From: Pirellulales bacterium
Lineage (GTDB): Bacteria > Planctomycetota > Planctomycetia > Pirellulales > JAICIG01
Length of the DNA: 64,000 bases
Assembly: GCA_035533075.1 (NCBI GenBank)
Contig: DATLUO010000038.1
Span: 1 to 64,000 of the forward strand
Reading direction: 5' to 3'
Part shown: piece by piece, positions 12,542 through 54,016 of the stretch
Layout: every line of letters begins with the position of its first letter
How positions within the stretch are numbered: position 1 is the first letter of the stretch
Made by a program: the position numbers and the translations under genes
Notes under the pieces: generated by a model
Told to the model about the DNA's origin: nothing
The model's input: only the letters and a program-made list of their open reading frames with translations
Databases searched by the model: none

Positions 12542-13852
12542 ATGCCTCAGATGAAATTCGGCAAGACGGCTTACTCGTTAAAGGAACTCGTCGGTGCATG
12601 GAAGGACGGGTTGCTCGTTCGCAATCCCGAGTATCAGCGCGGCGAGGCATGGAGCCTGTCCCAAAAGCAGGCACTGGTTGATTCGCTCTTTCGCCACTAC
12701 CCTATCCCGCCGTTGTTCCTAGAACAAAAGGTTAAGGCGAGCCTTGGCGGGGCAAAATCGGAAAAGTACGAGATCATCGACGGCCAACAACGCCTCCTCG
12801 CGATCTCGGAATACTTTGACGGCAACTTCGCCCTGCTTGCGCCGCACGACAAGCGGCTGCGACTCCCAGTTAGCCTCCGGACACAATCCGCACGATGGGC
12901 GGAACGACGATATGACGGTTTAAGCCATGAATTGCGGACGGAACTGGATGACGCAAAGGTTGATGTTTTCGTCGTTTCGCACGTCGATCATCCCGATGAA
13001 GTACGAGATTTGTTCATCCGATTACAGTCAGGTACCGCGCTGACGAGACAGCAGATCCGGGACGCGTGGCCTGGCCATCTTGGGCCATTCGTCGAATCAC
13101 TGGCTGGTAAGTTGCAAAAGCGGCCGAGATTCGAGTTCTTTGAGCTCGTCGATGGCCGAGGGCTCCGCGATGAGGAGGGCGATGCTCGGGATCCGTATGT
13201 CAAGCATCGCCAGACCTGTGCGCAGCTCTTGCGGATCATGCTGGCCCGAATGATAGAGCCGGCCGAGTTTCCGAGCATTGCAGCGGGCGACCTTGACGGC
13301 CTCTATCATGAATACACGGACATCGACCTTGAGGGCCCGACGATACGGCGAGCTCTGCAGGTGTTTGACGCGGTCGAGGAAGTCGGGCACCAGATTGGCC
13401 GGATGTACACGCGAAAATACAAGATCCACAAGCAGGGCATGTTTGCGCTATGCACCTTCTTTCAGGACGCCTTTCGCAATCCAAACTTCAAGATGGACCG
13501 AGAATCCATCCGCAAGCTTGCGGAGTACGTCACAACGAAAGCCCCCAAGGCTGAGGGTAAATCGAGTTCCGCGGCCAAGAATGCGGCTTATTATGAAAGA
13601 TGGCGGGTCCAGTTGCCTGAGGGTATCGGCGTCAAGCTTGACCCGAAGCGGCTTTTTGACGACAGCCAGAAGCAGGAGTTACATCGCCTTTCGGGTGGCA
13701 AGTGCAAGAGGTGTGATCGACCGACCGAACTTGCTGATGGCGAGGGCGATCATTACCCAATACCTCATCGCGATGGCGGCCCGACGACGATCGAAAACGG
13801 GCGATTCGTCTGTAAAGAATGCAACCGCCCCGGCCGCCCAAGACTTCCATAG
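12542..13852 (+). CDS. DUF262 (GmrS-like) protein with C-terminal HNH nuclease domain
   Basis: This 436-residue protein has the DUF262 signatures: NPEYQRGEAW (residues 29-37), PIPPLFL, and the catalytic-type IIDGQQR (D80). A C-terminal HNH/zinc module of about 50 residues follows, with CKRC, GDHYPIP, an H-x-D-GG-x-T segment and CKECN. DUF262 is the nucleotide-handling ParB/Srx-like half of GmrSD-type modification-dependent restriction enzymes. It is also the N-terminal domain of SspE, which restricts phage DNA in phosphorothioating hosts. Here it is fused to HNH rather than DUF1524. The neighbouring dnd remnants and SBD-like HNH gene fit an anti-phage role. The target modification is unknown. 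Confidence 0.8.
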   Translation: MPQMKFGKTAYSLKELVGAWKDGLLVRNPEYQRGEAWSLSQKQALVDSLFRHYPIPPLFLEQKVKASLGGAKSEKYEIIDGQQRLLAISEYFDGNFALLAPHDKRLRLPVSLRTQSARWAERRYDGLSHELRTELDDAKVDVFVVSHVDHPDEVRDLFIRLQSGTALTRQQIRDAWPGHLGPFVESLAGKLQKRPRFEFFELVDGRGLRDEEGDARDPYVKHRQTCAQLLRIMLARMIEPAEFPSIAAGDLDGLYHEYTDIDLEGPTIRRALQVFDAVEEVGHQIGRMYTRKYKIHKQGMFALCTFFQDAFRNPNFKMDRESIRKLAEYVTTKAPKAEGKSSSAAKNAAYYERWRVQLPEGIGVKLDPKRLFDDSQKQELHRLSGGKCKRCDRPTELADGEGDHYPIPHRDGGPTTIENGRFVCKECNRPGRPRLP

Positions 13853-13907
13853 TAGGGATTCAATCACCGCAGCAAACGCGATAAATAGCCGGCGACACGC
13901 GCCGCCA

Positions 13908-14804
13908 TCAGTTCCCCTCAAACTTCTTCTCTCGGTGCCACGCGAGATGCTTGCGGTCGGGCCAAATCAGCTCGTTGCTCGGCAACCGAATTCGCTGCCC
14001 TGCGTAATCCTTCAGCGGCTTCTGGTCGGGGCATTCTTCGTCGAAACGGTCGGCGGCGACGAGAATGCGGTATTCGTCGTCGATCGACCAGAGGCCGGCG
14101 TCGAAGAGCCAGTGGGCGTTCTTCGAGAGAGCCAGGCCGTTGCGGGGGTCGTCGTTGCGGGAGTCGGAGAATTGATGGATGTGGGCGGCGTCGACGATGC
14201 TGCCCGCCGCGATCGTCGTCAAACGCAGGCCGGTCAACGCACAGGTGTAGTTATAGGCCGCCACGACATCGAGGCGGAACCGCACGTCACGACCCTTGCG
14301 CCGCGGGTCGTCGTCGGGCAAATAGCTGGCGTCGGCCGCAATCTGGTCGTCGGTCGGAAGGAGCATCTCGAACAGCGAGTAAAGTGCCAACCGCTCGGCC
14401 GGCTCAAAATACCTGGCGATCAGGATGCGCCGAGCCTGCTCGCGAAATGCTCCATCGGCCGCGGCCGCGACAAAGCGGGCATTCAACCGCGCCACGCGGG
14501 CCAACTTGTGATCGCTCGTCGGCTCGCCGCGGGCATCGAGCGGCGTCCAAACGCCCTCGGTCTTCAGCTTGGTGAACGGGAACCGCACATCGGGCTTCTG
14601 GTTGCGGCGGTGAGCCACGATCGACCAGTAAGTGCAGAAGCGAAAGGCGAGCTGCGGCGTCAGCGGCAGAACCTCGTGGCCAAGCGAGCCCTCTCGGGCC
14701 AAGTCGAGCACGACGAGCAGCAACAAAGGCTTGTGCGGCGCGTTCGATGCCGTGTCAATCCGCAGCCGGGCGAACTTCGCCAGCCAAAAGCCCTGATCGT
14801 TCAC
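13908..14804 (-). CDS. HNH endonuclease, probable phosphorothioate-DNA-dependent restriction enzyme
   Basis: This 298-residue protein starts at a GTG at 14804. The N-terminal half carries APHKPLLLLVVLDL and, further on, RFPFTKLKTEGVW, which resemble the sulfur-binding domain that recognises phosphorothioated DNA in ScoMcrA/EcoWI-type enzymes. The C-terminal half has an HNH core: CALTG, then VDAAHIHQF, SRNDDPRNGLALSKNAHW and LFDAGLW. The expected action is cleavage of DNA bearing phosphorothioate marks. It converges with the DUF262-HNH gene. A broken second copy lies at 15640-16165 beyond the ORF6N gene, implying a past tandem duplication. The HNH fold is firm; sulfur recognition rests on memory of motifs. 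Confidence 0.75.
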   Translation of the reverse strand: MNDQGFWLAKFARLRIDTASNAPHKPLLLLVVLDLAREGSLGHEVLPLTPQLAFRFCTYWSIVAHRRNQKPDVRFPFTKLKTEGVWTPLDARGEPTSDHKLARVARLNARFVAAAADGAFREQARRILIARYFEPAERLALYSLFEMLLPTDDQIAADASYLPDDDPRRKGRDVRFRLDVVAAYNYTCALTGLRLTTIAAGSIVDAAHIHQFSDSRNDDPRNGLALSKNAHWLFDAGLWSIDDEYRILVAADRFDEECPDQKPLKDYAGQRIRLPSNELIWPDRKHLAWHREKKFEGN

Positions 14805-14947
14805 CGCCGTCGAGCTCCCGTCGCCAGGGAAGAAATGGATGAGGGCATTCTAACGTGAACCACAAAGAGTACAAAGGACACGAAGGCAACAGGGCACAGG
14901 GCACAGGGAAGACGGAACCGGTGGCAGGGCTGCCCACGTACATTTCG

Positions 14948-14972
14948 ATGCGGTCACGAATTGTGACCGCAT
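14948..14972. repeat. Palindrome sharing its core with one inside the ORF6N gene
   Basis: Ten-base arms (ATGCGGTCAC and GTGACCGCAT) flank a five-base centre GAATT, just downstream of the ORF6N stop at 15002. The core GGTCACRAATTGTGACC is the same as in the palindrome at 15371-15399 inside the gene. Confidence 0.7.
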
Positions 14973-15001
14973 GCCTTCCTTTGAAGTCGCCGATTGTGAT
15001 C

Positions 15002-15598
15002 TCAAAGCATCGGCTTCGTCCGCGCGCTTCGCTTCCGCTTGGCTCGTTCGGCGCCACCGGCCCGCGGTGCGTCGCCCTCCGCGGCCGCGAAGCCGATGCG
15101 GCGCTTTTTGGGCGCCGGCGGCGGGGCCATGAGCTGGCGGATGGCCTCGAACACCACGCGAAAGTTGTCATCGTACTTGCGCTCCAGCTCCGCCAGCTTC
15201 GCCGCCAGATCTTTGTGGGACGCCAGGATTTCCCGCAGGCGGACGAAGGCCCGCATGATGGCGATGTTCACCTCGATGGCCCGATCACTGTTTAGGACGC
15301 TGGAGAGCATCGCAACACGCTGCTCGGTGAAGGCGTAGGGCAAATACTTGCGGTGTTGGCCGCGCCCGCTCTTTAAGGTCACAAATTGTGACCTTAAAGC
15401 CGCCGCCTCGTCAGCGGTCAGTTGGAACATGAAATCGTCGGGGAACCGCTTGGCGTTACGCTTGACCGCCTGATTGAATGCCTTTGTGGGCACGCCATAG
15501 AGCTCGGCCAGATCGCGGTCGAGCATCACTTTCTGGCCACGGATGAGCAGAATCGCCCGCTCGATTCGCTCCGCCGGAACTAAAAGCTCTTTCGCCAC
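15002..15598 (-). CDS. ORF6N-domain protein (phage-type DNA-binding domain)
   Basis: A 198-residue protein starting at GTG 15598. The first 110 residues match the ORF6N domain: [47 protein letters not shown] and [16 protein letters not shown] helical region and a basic, Ala/Pro-rich C-terminal tail follow. ORF6N proteins are phage-derived, probably DNA-binding, and often found in mobile or defence regions. The codons for RSQFVTLK form part of a 29-bp palindrome (15371-15399), repeated in shorter form just past the gene. It lies between an intact HNH gene and its degraded copy, consistent with a small mobile or duplicated block. The biological role is unknown. Confidence 0.85.
15371..15399. 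repeat. 29-bp near-perfect palindrome inside the ORF6N coding sequence
   Basis: Fourteen-base perfect arms (CTTTAAGGTCACAA and its complement) surround one central base within codons for the ORF6N domain. Because it coincides with coding sequence, its conservation at DNA level would need a separate reason, such as binding by the gene's own product. Confidence 0.8.
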
Positions 15599-47991: not shown

Positions 47992-48387
47992 GTGGAAATT
48001 CGACTCATTCGCGGGAGGGTTGTGTGGGCGACCGTTCCCGACCCGCAAGGACGAAACCCTAAGTCGCGTCGGTGCATCGTCATCTCGGACGTCGATCCCG
48101 TAAACCCGCCCAACGAGGCGACGGTCGTCTATGTCACCTCAAGTATCAACGAGGCCGAAGGGGATGAGTACGTCCATTTACAATACGGACCCCGCTGTCT
48201 GACCTCGTTTGTCAAGCCAAGCGCGGCACATTGTATCGGCGTCTACAAGCTGCCGGCGAGCGCGATTACGGTCGATCGGGGAGTCGTAGGGCCTGCATAT
48301 ATCGAGGCGATTCGGCAGCGCATTGACGCGCTCGGAGATCGAGTCGTCGTTCAGGAGTACCCGTTCCCAGGCGATGCGATGGCATAA
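47992..48387 (+). CDS. Possible PemK/MazF-like protein
   Basis: 131 residues from a GTG start. IRGRVVWATVPDPQGRNPKS and RCIVISD resemble the first strands of PemK/MazF-type mRNA interferases (G-x-V-v-w-a...K-x-R-p-v-v-V-S). The middle ATVVYVTSS and LTSFVKPSAAHC fit the later strands. No antitoxin-like gene is directly adjacent, although the DUF6941-like gene upstream could be co-transcribed. Assignment by pattern only. Confidence 0.55.
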   Translation: MEIRLIRGRVVWATVPDPQGRNPKSRRCIVISDVDPVNPPNEATVVYVTSSINEAEGDEYVHLQYGPRCLTSFVKPSAAHCIGVYKLPASAITVDRGVVGPAYIEAIRQRIDALGDRVVVQEYPFPGDAMA

Positions 48388-48508
48388 CCGCGCGACGGAA
48401 CAGCGCCGTGTGCCGCCGCGGCGCTAAGCGTTTGGGCACCGTAGGTGGTGGCTCCCCTACCGCGGCTTAGCGGCGAAGGTCAGGTTCTGGTTTGGCAAGC
48501 GGCCGGGC

Positions 48509-49927
48509 CTATCCGTTTGGCAGGACCGCCTGGACCGCTTCCAGGGCCTTGCGTTCGCGGCGAAGCTTGCGGAGACGCCGTTTGCTGGATCTGGAAGCCG
48601 TTTGCGGCGCCGTCTGGCTGTTTGGAAGGCTGCCAACCGTTTCCAAGGCTGCCACGCTCGGCGGGGCGTCCCGCCGCAGTTCCACCGCCACCACGGCCGA
48701 ATTCGGAAGACTGCCAACCGTCTCCAAGGCTGCCACGCTCGGCGGGGCGTCCCGCCGCGGTTCCACCTCCGCCGCGGCCGAATTTGGAAGGCTGCCAACC
48801 GTTTCGAAGGCTGCCACCGTTTGCGGCGCCGAATCCGCGCACGCCGGCCGCACATCTCCGATCTGCCCACGAAAGCCCCAGAGCCACGGACCGCCCTGCC
48901 CGGCTTTCGTCGGGTGAAGCCCCATCTCGGCGGCGGCCCGCCGCACCGTCCGTTCGGAAAGGTGGCATTGACGGGCTTCTTCCCACAGCCGCTGGGCCTC
49001 GATCGGACCCTCCGAGAGGAGCTCCAACAGCCACTGGCCCGCCTGCCGCCTTTCATGGCGATCGACGGAGCGGACCGAGGCGGCCACGACCTCGTCGGCC
49101 GTCACCTGGCAGGTCGCCGCCTGCCATACCAGGCGATCGCCCGCCATCTGAAACGCCAGATTGTCGGCCGGGCGGCCCAATTGGTTCTGGGCGCACACCA
49201 CCACGCGGCTATCGGAACGATAGGGGTCGCGCCCCAGCAGCCAAACCATCGGGGCCGCGGCCAGCATGGCATCGAGCGCCCGGTTCGCTCCACCCCGGCC
49301 GCCTTTCTCCAACTGCCAGACGATGACCAGGGCAATCCGACGCCGCGCCGCCAGCTCGGACAACTTGTCAAACAGGGCGGCCAGCTCTTCGGCACGCGGG
49401 CCGGGCGTCCGCAGCCAGCCGCGCAAATGGTCGACCACCACCAGCCGGCAATCGGCGATTTGGTCCAGCGCGCTTTCCAGCTTGCCGATCAGGGCCTCGG
49501 CCGGCGTCACGCCGTTGTGGTGCAGGCGTCCCGCCTGCGTTTCCGGGGCGGGCGGTTCACCGTCGGCATTGATGAGGGCCAGCCGCCGCGGATCGGCGCC
49601 GGCCGCCAACAGCCGTCGTTTGACGACCGGGTTCAGGTGCCGGTCGGACTGCGCGATCAGGACCGGGCCGGGGAGCGTGTCGCCCGCCACCGCCTCGGGC
49701 CAGGCTGTGCCGCTCGACACACGTGCGGCGAGGTCGGCTGCCAGCAGGCTTTTGCCGCTGCCGGCCTCGCCCGCCACGACGGTCACGTGCCCCACGGGAA
49801 GCCTGTCGGGCCACAGCCAGTGGGTGTCGGCCCCGTCGATCTCGTCGAGCCGCAGCAGTTCGCAGGGGGCCGTGGTCGAGTCGCCGGTCCGAGACCGGCC
49901 GCCGTCAGAAAGAGATTCGCATGACAT
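48509..49927 (-). CDS. RepA-like AAA ATPase with C-terminal HTH and 27-residue tandem repeats
   Basis: The start at 49927 is supported by GGAGA six bases upstream and a promoter at 49969-49998, although the frame is open further upstream; the product has 472 residues. Walker A is GEAGSGKSLLAADLA (residues 53-67), and VVVDHLRGWLR gives the Walker B strand, as in RepA/AAA_25 helicase-like ATPases. At about residues 300-355 a winged helix-like region (CHLSERTVRRAAAEM) precedes a C-terminus of 27-residue repeats (PSVAALETVGSLPNS). Role: possibly DNA binding or replication control of a mobile unit; unknown. The last 20 residues are basic. Confidence 0.7.
   Translation of the reverse strand: MSCESLSDGGRSRTGDSTTAPCELLRLDEIDGADTHWLWPDRLPVGHVTVVAGEAGSGKSLLAADLAARVSSGTAWPEAVAGDTLPGPVLIAQSDRHLNPVVKRRLLAAGADPRRLALINADGEPPAPETQAGRLHHNGVTPAEALIGKLESALDQIADCRLVVVDHLRGWLRTPGPRAEELAALFDKLSELAARRRIALVIVWQLEKGGRGGANRALDAMLAAAPMVWLLGRDPYRSDSRVVVCAQNQLGRPADNLAFQMAGDRLVWQAATCQVTADEVVAASVRSVDRHERRQAGQWLLELLSEGPIEAQRLWEEARQCHLSERTVRRAAAEMGLHPTKAGQGGPWLWGFRGQIGDVRPACADSAPQTVAAFETVGSLPNSAAAEVEPRRDAPPSVAALETVGSLPNSAVVAVELRRDAPPSVAALETVGSLPNSQTAPQTASRSSKRRLRKLRRERKALEAVQAVLPNG
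48624..48850 (-). repeat. 81-bp tandem repeat in the AAA ATPase gene
   Basis: Units begin at 48624, 48705 and 48786, each with GGAAG.CTGCCAACCGT and, in full units, GGCGGGGCGTCCCGCCGC. Two are complete and the third partial. Period 81 bp keeps the frame and yields 27-residue protein repeats. Confidence 0.88.
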
Positions 49928-50596
49928 GGATTTGTCTCCAGTTGTAGGAATGGTTGAACATGTTCCTAAGTATACGATACATGGGAACATGGTGTCAACG
50001 GGCGACGGGACCGTGCTGTCATGCTGCGTCTGGTCGGTCGCCATCGTCGAATCGAAGGTGTTCTGGTCGGTCGTTTCCGTCACAGAAAGTTGGGTTGCGG
50101 CCGGCCCGGCAACGCCGTCGTACTGCGACTGCGCACTCGCGTCCTGGCTTCCCTGGGTGCCCTGCGCGTCTTGAATTTGCTGCTGAGCCAAGCCGTCCGC
50201 TGCCTGGTCATTTGAAGACGCCTGCTGGTCCGCCGTGCTCTGCGCGCCTTGCTCCGTCGTGGTCGCAGAGTCAATTGTGTTCGTAATATCCTGCTGTTGC
50301 GACAGGTCAAAGGCGTTTTCGTCAGTCGTGATTCCACCAAGTTGCGAGTTCAGCGTGTCCTGCGCCGACTGGAAGGCCGATTGCCACGTCCCGTCTTCGG
50401 TCGCTTGCGTGGCGGAATAAGCCGCCTGTGCTGTGGCCAGCGCGGTCTGGTAATCAGTCGTCGCGTCGAGCATCATGCGTGGCTCGAGACTTTCTGTGCC
50501 AAGCCGGCGAATGACCCTCGCGCGCCTTTTTCGCTTTTGACCGAGTTGCCGGGCGACCGTGAACGAACAAAGTTCAAACAGTGAAGAAAGGTGCAT
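49928..50596 (-). CDS. LEPR-motif protein N-terminus, running in frame into the ATPase gene
   Basis: An ATG at 50596 with TGGAG 8 bases upstream begins a protein whose residues 30-50 read RRLGTESLEPRMMLDA, the LEPR signal found near the N-terminus of many large planctomycete surface proteins. About 150 residues rich in Ala, Gln, Thr and Asp follow. The frame then passes through the promoter region and continues into the AAA ATPase without a stop. I think the fusion is accidental and that this is a truncated surface-protein start. The adjacent plus-strand gene has the same Ala/Asp/Thr-rich style. Confidence 0.5.
49953..49999 (-). promoter_or_regulatory. Promoter and overlapping dyad operator of the AAA ATPase gene
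   Basis: On the minus strand TTGACA (49993-49998) and TATACT (49969-49974) are 18 bp apart. Arms GTTGAACATGTTCC (49953-49966) and GGAACATGGTGTCAAC (49984-49999) form a dyad with a two-base bulge that covers the spacer and the transcription start, a classical repressor-site layout. GAACATGTTC at 49956-49965 is itself a palindrome. Confidence 0.7.
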
Positions 50597-50609
50597 GACG
50601 TAAACTCCA

Positions 50610-51623
50610 GTGGAAATGGTTCTGGTCCAGGTGCCGGCGCAGGTAACGCTTAACAAGACCCAGATCGACGACGCACGTGGGGAAGTGACGGGAGAGATCA
50701 ACGCCGACGTTCAGGACGGCAATACGCACGCTTCCGACGAGGATACACGCGACAAGGCGTACAGCGCTGCCCAGCTAGCATTCTTGCAGCAGGCCGACCC
50801 GGAGATTGCTGCCGACGAGGAGGCTGAGACGAGCAAGTCGGCGGACGATACGAACCAGGCAGCACAGGACGAAGCTGCGGCGATAAAGAAAGTGGATGCG
50901 GCGACGGAGCAAGAAGTGGACGACCTGGTGCCCGCCGGTCAAACGATGGTCGACAAGGAGGCGAACGCAGATAAAACGTTCGTAAAAGCGGAGGTGGATG
51001 CGGCGGTCGATGCGGCCAATACGGCGGCTGCGAACACGGCAACGACTGTGGCGGCAGAGCCGGACAGCGACTTCCAGGACGCCCAAACAATCGGCGCTCC
51101 AGGCATCTACATTGACGTGAGCGGCATCCACGCCTCGTTCCTCCTGCCGCTGATCGACGATACTGGTAAGCTCACGGGTTACAAGTTCTTCTCCTACTGG
51201 GATGCTTCGTGGAACCCAGGGGACTCAGGCGGCCATGCGTTCAACATCTTTGGCTACATTGGATTCAGGCAAGCCTTTGTCCAAACCAAAATCAAAGATG
51301 CCACATTTAATCCAGAAGAAAAGTTCGACTACTTTGTCCCAACGACGATGACCGGCCTGACGAACATGCTGAATTACGCGCAGCGGATTGAGCATGGCAT
51401 GGGGAGCTGGTGGTTTGGCTCGCAGTATTACAGCGTGCTCGATGGCCGCACCTGTGTCGGATTCGTCCTCGACACAATGGACGAGGCGGACCTGTGGCCG
51501 CTCGGGGCCGGATGGTACTGGCCTGGCATGACGCTGGCAACCCAACTGATGACACGCATTCCTTCAACGATCCGTCTTCCTAACGCCAACATCTGGGAAT
51601 ATGCGGTTCCCCCGCCGTACTAA
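50610..51623 (+). CDS. Unknown protein: Ala/Asp-rich repeat region plus C-terminal domain
   Basis: 337 residues from a GTG without a clear ribosome site. Residues 15-160 are rich in Ala, Asp, Glu, Lys and Thr and helical-looking (DAAVDAANTAAANTATT). Residues 160-337 form a compact domain with HAFNIFGYIGF (H at about 211), YFVPTTMTGLTNML, WWFGSQYYSVLDGRTCVGFV. The Cys in TCVGFV followed by LDTMDEADLWP recalls NlpC/P60-like or DUF4105-like folds, but this is a guess. No signal peptide: the true N-terminus may have been lost by an inversion that moved the LEPR start onto the other strand. Confidence 0.5.
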   Translation: MEMVLVQVPAQVTLNKTQIDDARGEVTGEINADVQDGNTHASDEDTRDKAYSAAQLAFLQQADPEIAADEEAETSKSADDTNQAAQDEAAAIKKVDAATEQEVDDLVPAGQTMVDKEANADKTFVKAEVDAAVDAANTAAANTATTVAAEPDSDFQDAQTIGAPGIYIDVSGIHASFLLPLIDDTGKLTGYKFFSYWDASWNPGDSGGHAFNIFGYIGFRQAFVQTKIKDATFNPEEKFDYFVPTTMTGLTNMLNYAQRIEHGMGSWWFGSQYYSVLDGRTCVGFVLDTMDEADLWPLGAGWYWPGMTLATQLMTRIPSTIRLPNANIWEYAVPPPY

Positions 51624-52102
51624 TGAAAAAAACGCTCTGGTTGGCGATCCTCATCATCGCCATCGTCGTGGTCTCCCTTTGGCCTCTGCGCAATCCGTGG
51701 CCGGACGCCTGCTGGCAGCCATTCAGCTCATGGGGTGATGCCTGGGTATTGCCGCCACGGCCCAGCGGGGCCTATATGATTTACCTGGCCTACCACAAGA
51801 AGGACGGTGGCCGCCTTGACAGCGCGACGAGGCGAACCGACATCAAGCTGACGGTCATTGACGAGACAGACGGCAGTGAGGTGCCGCTACTTCGCGATTG
51901 GGAGTACGGACAGATTGGCCCCAACAAGGATTGGCAGATGGAAGAGGTCGGCGATGTCCGGCTTGTCGAGGGGCACCGCTACCATATTGAAGTGGATGCC
52001 GAGCAACTCAAGCAGCTCTCCCGTTACCGTCACAAGCTAGGCGTGGATCTGGACGTATACGAAAAGATGAACTGGGGAAAACCCAAGAAACGGCCGCCCT
52101 GA
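51623..52102 (+). CDS. Small membrane-anchored protein of unknown function
   Basis: 159 residues: an N-terminal membrane span or signal (KKTLWLAILIIAIVVVSLW), then a beta-rich domain (AYMIYLAYHKKDGG, IKLTVIDETDGSEV, GHRYHIEVDAEQL) ending in a Lys/Pro tail. Its ATG overlaps the previous stop by one base (TAATG), so the two are coupled. No family recognised. Confidence 0.7.
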   Translation: MKKTLWLAILIIAIVVVSLWPLRNPWPDACWQPFSSWGDAWVLPPRPSGAYMIYLAYHKKDGGRLDSATRRTDIKLTVIDETDGSEVPLLRDWEYGQIGPNKDWQMEEVGDVRLVEGHRYHIEVDAEQLKQLSRYRHKLGVDLDVYEKMNWGKPKKRPP

Positions 52103-52252
52103 AGTGGCCACGATCATGGGCTGACGCCTCTGCCAGGTAATCAGCGCGGCCGCCCAGGAAGCTGTGCCGCCTGCGGCATCCGGGCGGAACAAACAAAAAT
52201 GGCCACCGTCTTCGGCTGGCCAAGCCGGGATTTCGCGCGTGCCGGTCCCACC

Positions 52253-54016
52253 CTACGGCGCGCGCAGCCAATCGACCAGCAGCCGCAGCTCGCGGTCGGT
52301 CAGAAGGTGGTGATCGGAGGACACAGACCGATCGGCAAACGGCGGCATGCGGTCGTTGCGGTCGCCGTAGAAGCGCTCGTCGCGCGGATTGCGGATGAAC
52401 TCTTCCAACCACTCGCGCGAGCCATAGCCGGTCAGATCGGGCGCCGAACCGAGTTCGCCTTCGTCGTGAAACTTGTGACAGTCCGTGCAGCCAAGTTCCC
52501 CAACGATCAACTGCCGACCCTGTTCCACGACGTCACTTTGCGAACCGGCGGCCGCCGGCGACGCTTCCGCCGCCAAGGCCATCGCCACGGCGTGGAGTTG
52601 CCCCGGCAATTTCTCGCTTGCGTCCGCGTGCAGATCGCGTATGGCACCAACCATCTCGCCTTCGGCGAAGCTGGTGCGGCCGAAATAGCGCGGGCCGACG
52701 ACGGCATCGGGATCGAGCAGCCCGGCGATCCACGGCGTCGAGCCAAAACCAACCAGGTCCGGCGCCGACGATTCCGCGGCCACAAAACCCTTGCCATCGG
52801 GACCGGAGTGCGAGTGACAACTTGCGCAATGCCGCTCGAAGATCAGCGGTCCTTGCGTTTCGGGGTCATCGCGCAACAGCGCCGACGCGCCTTCGGGCGG
52901 AATCCCGTTTTCGTCCGCCAACTGCCGCGCATGGTCGGCTAACTCGGCTGCCTGGACCTGTGCCTCCTGGTACTCCGGGTCGTTTGCGTCGCGGGCCAGC
53001 GAGGCCCAGGTGAGCCAGTCCCAAGCAGCGATGCCGGCAATCACCACCAGCCACCGCAGCGCCGTGCCGACACGCCGCCCGCAACCTTTGTCCAGGAAGG
53101 GAATCGCCAGAAAGAACGCCAGGACCGCCAACGGCACGACCAGCGTGGCCACGAATTCCCATTCGCCCGTGAAGTAGCGGCGCAGCTCGAAGAGCCAACG
53201 AAAGTACCATTCGGGCCGGGGTAGAACGGCGATCTCGGTGTCGGCCGGCGTGTCCAACGGCGCTCCGCGTTGCCAAGCCAGCCAAGCGACGATCGCCACC
53301 ACCGCGGCCACCACGGTGGCGTTGCGGACCGATTGATAGGGCCAATACGGCCGTGCCCGCGGCGAATCGGCGAGCGTGCCGCCGGCCAGGCCATGCCGGT
53401 AAACCTGACTCAGGTGGATGGCCAACAGCGTCAGACCTGCCAACGGCAACAGCCCGACGTGCAGGAAATAGAGGTGCGTCAAGGTGAGTTGCCCGACGTC
53501 GTCGCCGCCCACAAACAGCCGCTGAAAGGCCGGCCCTACCAGCGGAGTCGAGCCCAGGATGTTGGCCTCGACCTCGATCTGCGTCATCCCTTTCTGGCTG
53601 GCACAGAGCGGATTGCCTGTCACCGCCCAGGCAATCAGTAGCGGCAGCAACAGCAGGCCGGTGATCCAGATCAGCTCGCGCGGCGGCCGGAATGCCCGGC
53701 AGACGAGAACGCGGACGACGTGGACGCCCAGCAGCACGATCAAGGCGTGCGAGGCAAAGTAATGAATTCCGCGAAGGAAGCGGCCGGCCGTCGATTGCTC
53801 GATGTAGAACACGCTGGCCCAGGCGCTGGTGAACGAGGGACTGTACGTCGTCATCAGCAGCAGTCCGGTGACCACTTCGATGGCAAACACCCAGGCCAGA
53901 CAGCTCGCGCTCGTCAGCCACCAGCTTGGCCCATCGGGCAAAATCCGCCGGCGCAGCGGGGCCAACAGAGTCCGGTAGCCGGTACGCGCATCGAGCCAGT
54001 CGAAGAGCAGGCGCAT
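52253..54016 (-). CDS. Cytochrome b subunit of a bc-type complex fused to a di-haem cytochrome c domain
   Basis: This 587-residue protein starts as cytochrome b: helices with GIHYFASHALIVLLGVHVVRV (two His ligands) and, further on, LYFLHVGLLPLAGLTLLAIH, plus PEWYF, the Qo-site-type PEWY motif. After about residue 350 it becomes a soluble tail with two c-type haem sites, HCASCHSHSG near residue 400 and CTDCHKFHDEGE near residue 510. It oxidises quinol and passes electrons to its own c-haems and on to the cbb3 oxidase. The Rieske gene ends 3 bp upstream, so they form one operon. Confidence 0.93.
   Translation of the reverse strand: MRLLFDWLDARTGYRTLLAPLRRRILPDGPSWWLTSASCLAWVFAIEVVTGLLLMTTYSPSFTSAWASVFYIEQSTAGRFLRGIHYFASHALIVLLGVHVVRVLVCRAFRPPRELIWITGLLLLPLLIAWAVTGNPLCASQKGMTQIEVEANILGSTPLVGPAFQRLFVGGDDVGQLTLTHLYFLHVGLLPLAGLTLLAIHLSQVYRHGLAGGTLADSPRARPYWPYQSVRNATVVAAVVAIVAWLAWQRGAPLDTPADTEIAVLPRPEWYFRWLFELRRYFTGEWEFVATLVVPLAVLAFFLAIPFLDKGCGRRVGTALRWLVVIAGIAAWDWLTWASLARDANDPEYQEAQVQAAELADHARQLADENGIPPEGASALLRDDPETQGPLIFERHCASCHSHSGPDGKGFVAAESSAPDLVGFGSTPWIAGLLDPDAVVGPRYFGRTSFAEGEMVGAIRDLHADASEKLPGQLHAVAMALAAEASPAAAGSQSDVVEQGRQLIVGELGCTDCHKFHDEGELGSAPDLTGYGSREWLEEFIRNPRDERFYGDRNDRMPPFADRSVSSDHHLLTDRELRLLVDWLRAP

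Follow-up and report, generated by a model that had tools for sequence, protein, structure and literature searches.

Back-to-back halves beside a repeated ATPase unit point to a possible inversion within one LEPR-type gene of a Pirellulales bacterium

The window analyzed here, a 64,000-nucleotide stretch of a Pirellulales bacterium genome, contains two back-to-back frames that have codon signals, defined edges and a common structural type. On the minus strand lies a LEPR-type N-terminus that lacks a tail (50009..50596), and on the plus strand a frame that lacks a head (50604..51623). The most economical reading, which we hold with moderate confidence, is that one exported LEPR-protein gene was split by inversion of about 50.005–50.62 kb. 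This reading is favored because an exported N-terminus without a tail stands back to back with a gene without a head, both carry an uncommon type of rod, and the left edge of the arrangement is also the edge of an ATPase unit. The case is circumstantial, since no joined homolog was found, and the two rods have different compositions and fail to align.

Starting at 50596, the minus-strand frame encodes a basic leader and the SLEPRMML motif, followed by a helical rod rich in Gln, Ala, Thr and Asp, about 196 codons in all before it is cut off. A ribosome binding site, CTGGAG (50605..50610, minus strand), was recognized by eye eight bases upstream of the start. The frame has no stop as far as, and into, an AAA_25 ATPase gene (E 1.9e-19). 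The initial annotation, which described a well-started LEPR N-terminus running into an unrelated ATPase, was correct on both counts. As a protein, the LEPR half scores 14.3 bits with the LEPR-8K profile (NCBIfam NF012209; cut-off 17). In a LEPR-8K search of the bacterium's own genome, the site at 50596 ranks fourth of 17 matches with 16.3 bits, and only three of the 17 pass the cut-off. The half has the motif near its N-terminus, the basic leader and the ribosome site; the long protein behind the motif is found only if the frame is joined to the plus frame, as what follows here is the stub and then the ATPase promoter.

The stub is single-copy in its own genome (E up to 1). A script run over 15 of the 17 matched loci recovered, besides the window's own, 11 N-termini in which an ATG precedes a LEPR-like motif. 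Their open frames span 305 to 3519 aa, and the shortest two (305 and 502 aa), going by locus lengths, run up to a contig end. Two of the 11 (L078 and L079) have leaders like that at 50596. Codon signal was scored with a table trained on seven stretches of neighboring genes of our own choosing. In the LEPR frame, 13 of the 18 in-frame codon windows beginning at 50590 to 50080 are positive. The negative ones comprise one at 50290 and four over the leader, and the latter count against the inversion. The last signal occurs in the codon window that ends at 49991, and all five subsequent ones, beginning at 50050 to 49930, are negative.

The neighboring ATPase gene (48509..49927, minus strand, start at 49927) belongs to PF13481 and has several copies in the genome, where 11 stretches, the window's own included, are related to the ATPase region. 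A promoter-like site (49969..49998, minus strand) matches 11 of 12 consensus positions and is common to two paralogs; within 48000–53000, two such sites were found, with 0.6 expected. Because it has its own promoter-like site and its own start, shared with paralogs, the ATPase is a separate gene and not part of the LEPR protein, and its promoter marks the edge. Upstream homology to the two closest paralogs stops at 49998 and 50009. The leader of two paralogs is also open in the LEPR frame. A left breakpoint zone at 49999..50012 can be proposed from the ends of the paralog homology and from the loss of LEPR-frame codon signal. Since the ATPase stands as a separate gene, and the paralog homology edge and the loss of codon signal coincide there, the cut in the LEPR protein lies at about 50.0 kb, some 196 codons from its start.

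The ATPase promoter-like site is overlapped by a palindrome (49954–49991; 15-nt arms, 87%) with GAACATGTTC at its left end, a sequence that we take to resemble a Gram-positive SOS box. Inside the ATPase gene, an 81-bp tandem repeat (48624–48817; 2.4 copies, 91% match) encodes a 27-aa repeat near the C-terminus, and the match pattern suggests that its copy number differs among the ATPase paralogs. One copy of the gene (L072, 376–1249, on contig 189 of the same genome) is without the part that matches window positions 48717–49312 and is probably a broken paralog. Past the end of the ATPase gene lies a PemK/MazF-like toxin gene (47992–48387, plus strand; PF02452, 25.8 bits, cut-off 23.1). Elsewhere in the window, a cluster of GmrSD-like/HNH, HNH_2 and ORF6N genes at 12551–15598 looks like a defense or mobile patch.

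The plus-strand frame encodes a polar helical rod, which extends to about 51070, followed by an orphan C-terminal domain. It is open from 50604 and offers two candidate starts (GTG at 50610 and ATG at 50616); by eye, no clear ribosome site precedes them and no export leader is visible. Codon windows are positive from the first (50604–50693) through 51474–51563. The plus-strand gene without a start signal reported earlier close to the LEPR start is therefore confirmed. The right breakpoint would lie at 50611..50640, a zone that we partly infer and that separates the LEPR ribosome site from the coding part of the plus strand. No family was recognized for the C-terminal domain in profile searches, and an AlphaFold model of this part, built without relatives, has a mean pLDDT of 33. 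A papain/NlpC-like identity was considered and dropped.

Overlapping the plus-frame stop by TAATG is a coupled gene (51623..52102, plus strand) for a 159-aa product with a hydrophobic N-terminal helix. This helix is predicted at residues 3–23, which are hydrophobic in sequence, and in the AlphaFold model, likewise built without relatives (mean pLDDT 55), the first two ten-residue blocks exceed 70. Judged from these features, the product is probably exported, which would make a leaderless plus frame odd.

The two rods were compared with 275 control windows drawn from the window itself and from fetched stretches of the same genome. Polar content, calculated for a residue set (A, D, T, Q, E, N, S) picked after the sequences were seen, is higher in the LEPR rod and in the plus rod than in all 275 controls; an earlier control of 210 windows from eight stretches contained 0 of 210 with polar content as extreme. 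The 3.4–3.9 periodicity of ILVFYWM residues in both rods also exceeds that of all 275 controls, this set without Ala having been taken into the comparison after shuffles with and without Ala had been seen. In the within-sequence shuffles without Ala, the periodicity is reached by 1 of 1000 for the LEPR rod and 0 of 1000 for the plus rod. The result depends on the treatment of Ala: counted as hydrophobic, it yields a periodicity reached by 280 of 1000 shuffles for the plus rod and 0 of 1000 for the LEPR rod, and for Ala alone the values are 29 of 1000 (LEPR rod) and 810 of 1000 (plus rod).

The similar style that the initial annotation saw in these stretches holds in that both are polar; it does not extend to their makeup, the LEPR rod being rich in Gln, Ala and Thr, and the plus rod in Ala, Asp, Val, Thr and Glu. 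Measured from the LEPR rod by 20-residue composition, 16 of 480 controls are closer than the plus rod (9 of 480 with scaled values). With the plus rod as the reference, 149 of 480 are closer than the LEPR rod (365 of 480 with scaled values), an unremarkable distance. Alignment of one rod to the other is no better than that of shuffles, 446 of 1000 of which reach the score. The two rods are the same kind of structure; that they are parts of the same protein is not demonstrable from the comparison.

A joined LEPR and plus-frame homolog was not found in the relatives searched, nor were credible relatives of either part. The plus frame (or its 337-aa form) has no credible homolog in 97 relatives, 396 genomes of the order, 397 of the class, plasmids or viral contigs, and its C-terminal 183 aa have none in 392 genomes of the phylum or the genome contigs database; these genome samples overlap. 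No credible homolog of the 159-aa partner was found in 396 genomes. For the LEPR half, no rod homolog appeared in 196 relatives, the genome contigs database or plasmids, the 196 relatives yielding only other LEPR motifs. Because a single genome among the 97 relatives belonged to the same family, this absence says little about close kin. The refuting case set out in the initial annotation, separate halves in relatives, was neither seen nor countered by these searches.

Several weak matches were rejected. Those of the plus frame among the 97 relatives fall in two other genomes (E 0.004–0.008) and were discounted; one lies against a long frame (L004) that we take to read like an elongation factor, and the two in the other genome hold three stops each. 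The C-terminal 183 aa weakly match loci in 18 other genomes of the phylum, taken as chance or convergence. An NPGxSGG stretch is common to the query and 16 of the loci, and its PDB matches are proteases of the DegQ/HtrA/DegS type at E 0.57 or worse; another C-terminal match, L022, sits across the long frame of a different gene. When three frames of one strand were read, the matches of the 159-aa gene in two other genomes proved to run out of frame over another long frame (L030) or to contain an internal stop (L031). Matches of the LEPR half in four other genomes (L032–L035) carry a LEPR-like motif without a similar rod. Matches to triose-phosphate isomerase are below the cut-off and fall on the Ala-rich rod, and a weak match within the same genome (L002, E 0.077) was likewise set aside.

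These observations can be accommodated by an ancestral gene that would have run rightwards from beside the divergent ATPase gene and encoded a LEPR leader, a helical rod and a small C-terminal domain, with the coupled partner downstream. Some 600 bp (about 50.005 to 50.62 kb), including the ribosome site and the initial ~196 codons, would have been inverted once by illegitimate recombination. The tail-less N-terminus would since have pointed left into the ATPase promoter and the head-less remainder right, and the protein would no longer be made whole. Common origin as one gene, the direction of the change and the loss of function are what we infer from the arrangement. As both halves are still open, the event would, on the inversion reading, be recent. 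The earlier suggestion that an inversion would rejoin the halves thus stands as far as the back-to-back halves, the extreme character of both rods and the matching edge support it, and falls short in that no joined homolog was found.

The differing composition of the rods and their failure to align would also be expected if two different rod-type genes had been truncated separately and brought together by rearrangement, with no inversion of a single gene. The LEPR gene might, for example, have been cut by the arrival of the ATPase unit, which is multi-copy and has its edge at the break, the plus frame being an unrelated headless gene. We regard this as unlikely: it needs two truncations and the chance junction of two rods of the same uncommon structural type, for which 0 of 275 controls were as extreme by either measure. 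That nothing is broken at all is quite improbable. Two intact divergent genes would then be present: the minus-strand one would encode a short LEPR protein or an in-frame LEPR–ATPase fusion, and the plus-strand one, with its start at 50610 or 50616, a cytoplasmic rod protein. Both frames are without stops, and the LEPR frame is open into the ATPase, as is the leader of two paralogs in that frame. However, just 14–20 bp would separate the starts, no clear ribosome site precedes the plus frame, a promoter-like site and a start shared with paralogs belong to the ATPase itself, and LEPR-frame codon signal disappears between the LEPR part and the ATPase.

Phase variation, raised in the initial annotation, would have a recombinase flip a segment of ~600 bp to and fro and so turn an exported protein on and off. 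Both halves are open with codon signal, and the present orientation would therefore be young or reversible. The edges do not bear the idea out. No ungapped inverted match of 12–40 bp with at most 20% mismatch exists between 49930–50090 and 50560–50720, and exact inverted matches between the edges reach at most 5 bp, a length equaled or exceeded in 1682 of 2000 shuffles. A 5-bp match (50008–50012 / 50624–50628) would keep the two frames in the same phase, as worked out by hand from the coordinates; it was not counted as breakpoint evidence, its length being at chance level and phase agreement arising by chance in 1 of 3 cases. A repeat search of 49400–51700 gave 63 inverted pairs and 33 direct families. 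Among the 25 longest inverted pairs, the sole pair near both edges (50066–50083 / 50685–50702; 18 nt, 72%) is weak and would not span the proposed breakpoint zones. The check for invertase genes had a mixed outcome, in that the genome has two serine recombinases, both on other contigs; no tyrosine recombinase was found among the ten window genes scanned with Pfam. Phase variation by a recombinase is accordingly very improbable, and a reversible switch that flips the start of the LEPR surface protein without recognizable inverted repeats is extremely doubtful. If such a switch existed, the exported rod protein and its partner would in one orientation be driven from the region upstream of the ATPase; in the other the protein would be off, its N-terminus facing the ATPase gene. 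An assembly artefact, conceivable for a draft genome of 296 contigs with 2.69% contamination, is hardly likely either: no edge repeat that could mislead an assembler was found, either in the direct comparison of the two edges or among the 25 longest inverted pairs (of 63) and the 20 largest direct families (of 33), and the LEPR stub is single-copy. The locus looks like a one-off rearrangement, an ordinary gene breakage, and the analysis revealed no evidence of a switching system.

If the inversion reading is right, the locus represents a recent case in which a small inversion, at the border of a repeated ATPase unit, disrupted an exported-protein gene, and its significance would grow only with the discovery of both orientations in a population. 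Annotators should avoid calling a LEPR–ATPase fusion or a leaderless plus-strand gene here.

According to PMC11892184, inverted repeats of 10–40 nt flank invertons. The locus resembles them in its short, apparently inverted segment, which contains an exported-protein gene's start, and in that both halves are still open. It differs in that neither flanking inverted repeats of at least 12 bp nor a serine recombinase on the contig was found. With AAA_25 ATPases (PF13481) the likeness is confined to the neighboring gene, a member of this multi-copy family that forms no part of the split protein. LEPR-XLL domain proteins share with the stub a basic leader followed by a LEPR motif near the N-terminus. 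The stub differs from them in its LEPR-8K score, which is under the cut-off, and in its truncation at ~196 codons; Gln makes up 17% of the sequence after its LEPR motif, compared with 5% or less in the other 11 LEPR proteins of the genome.
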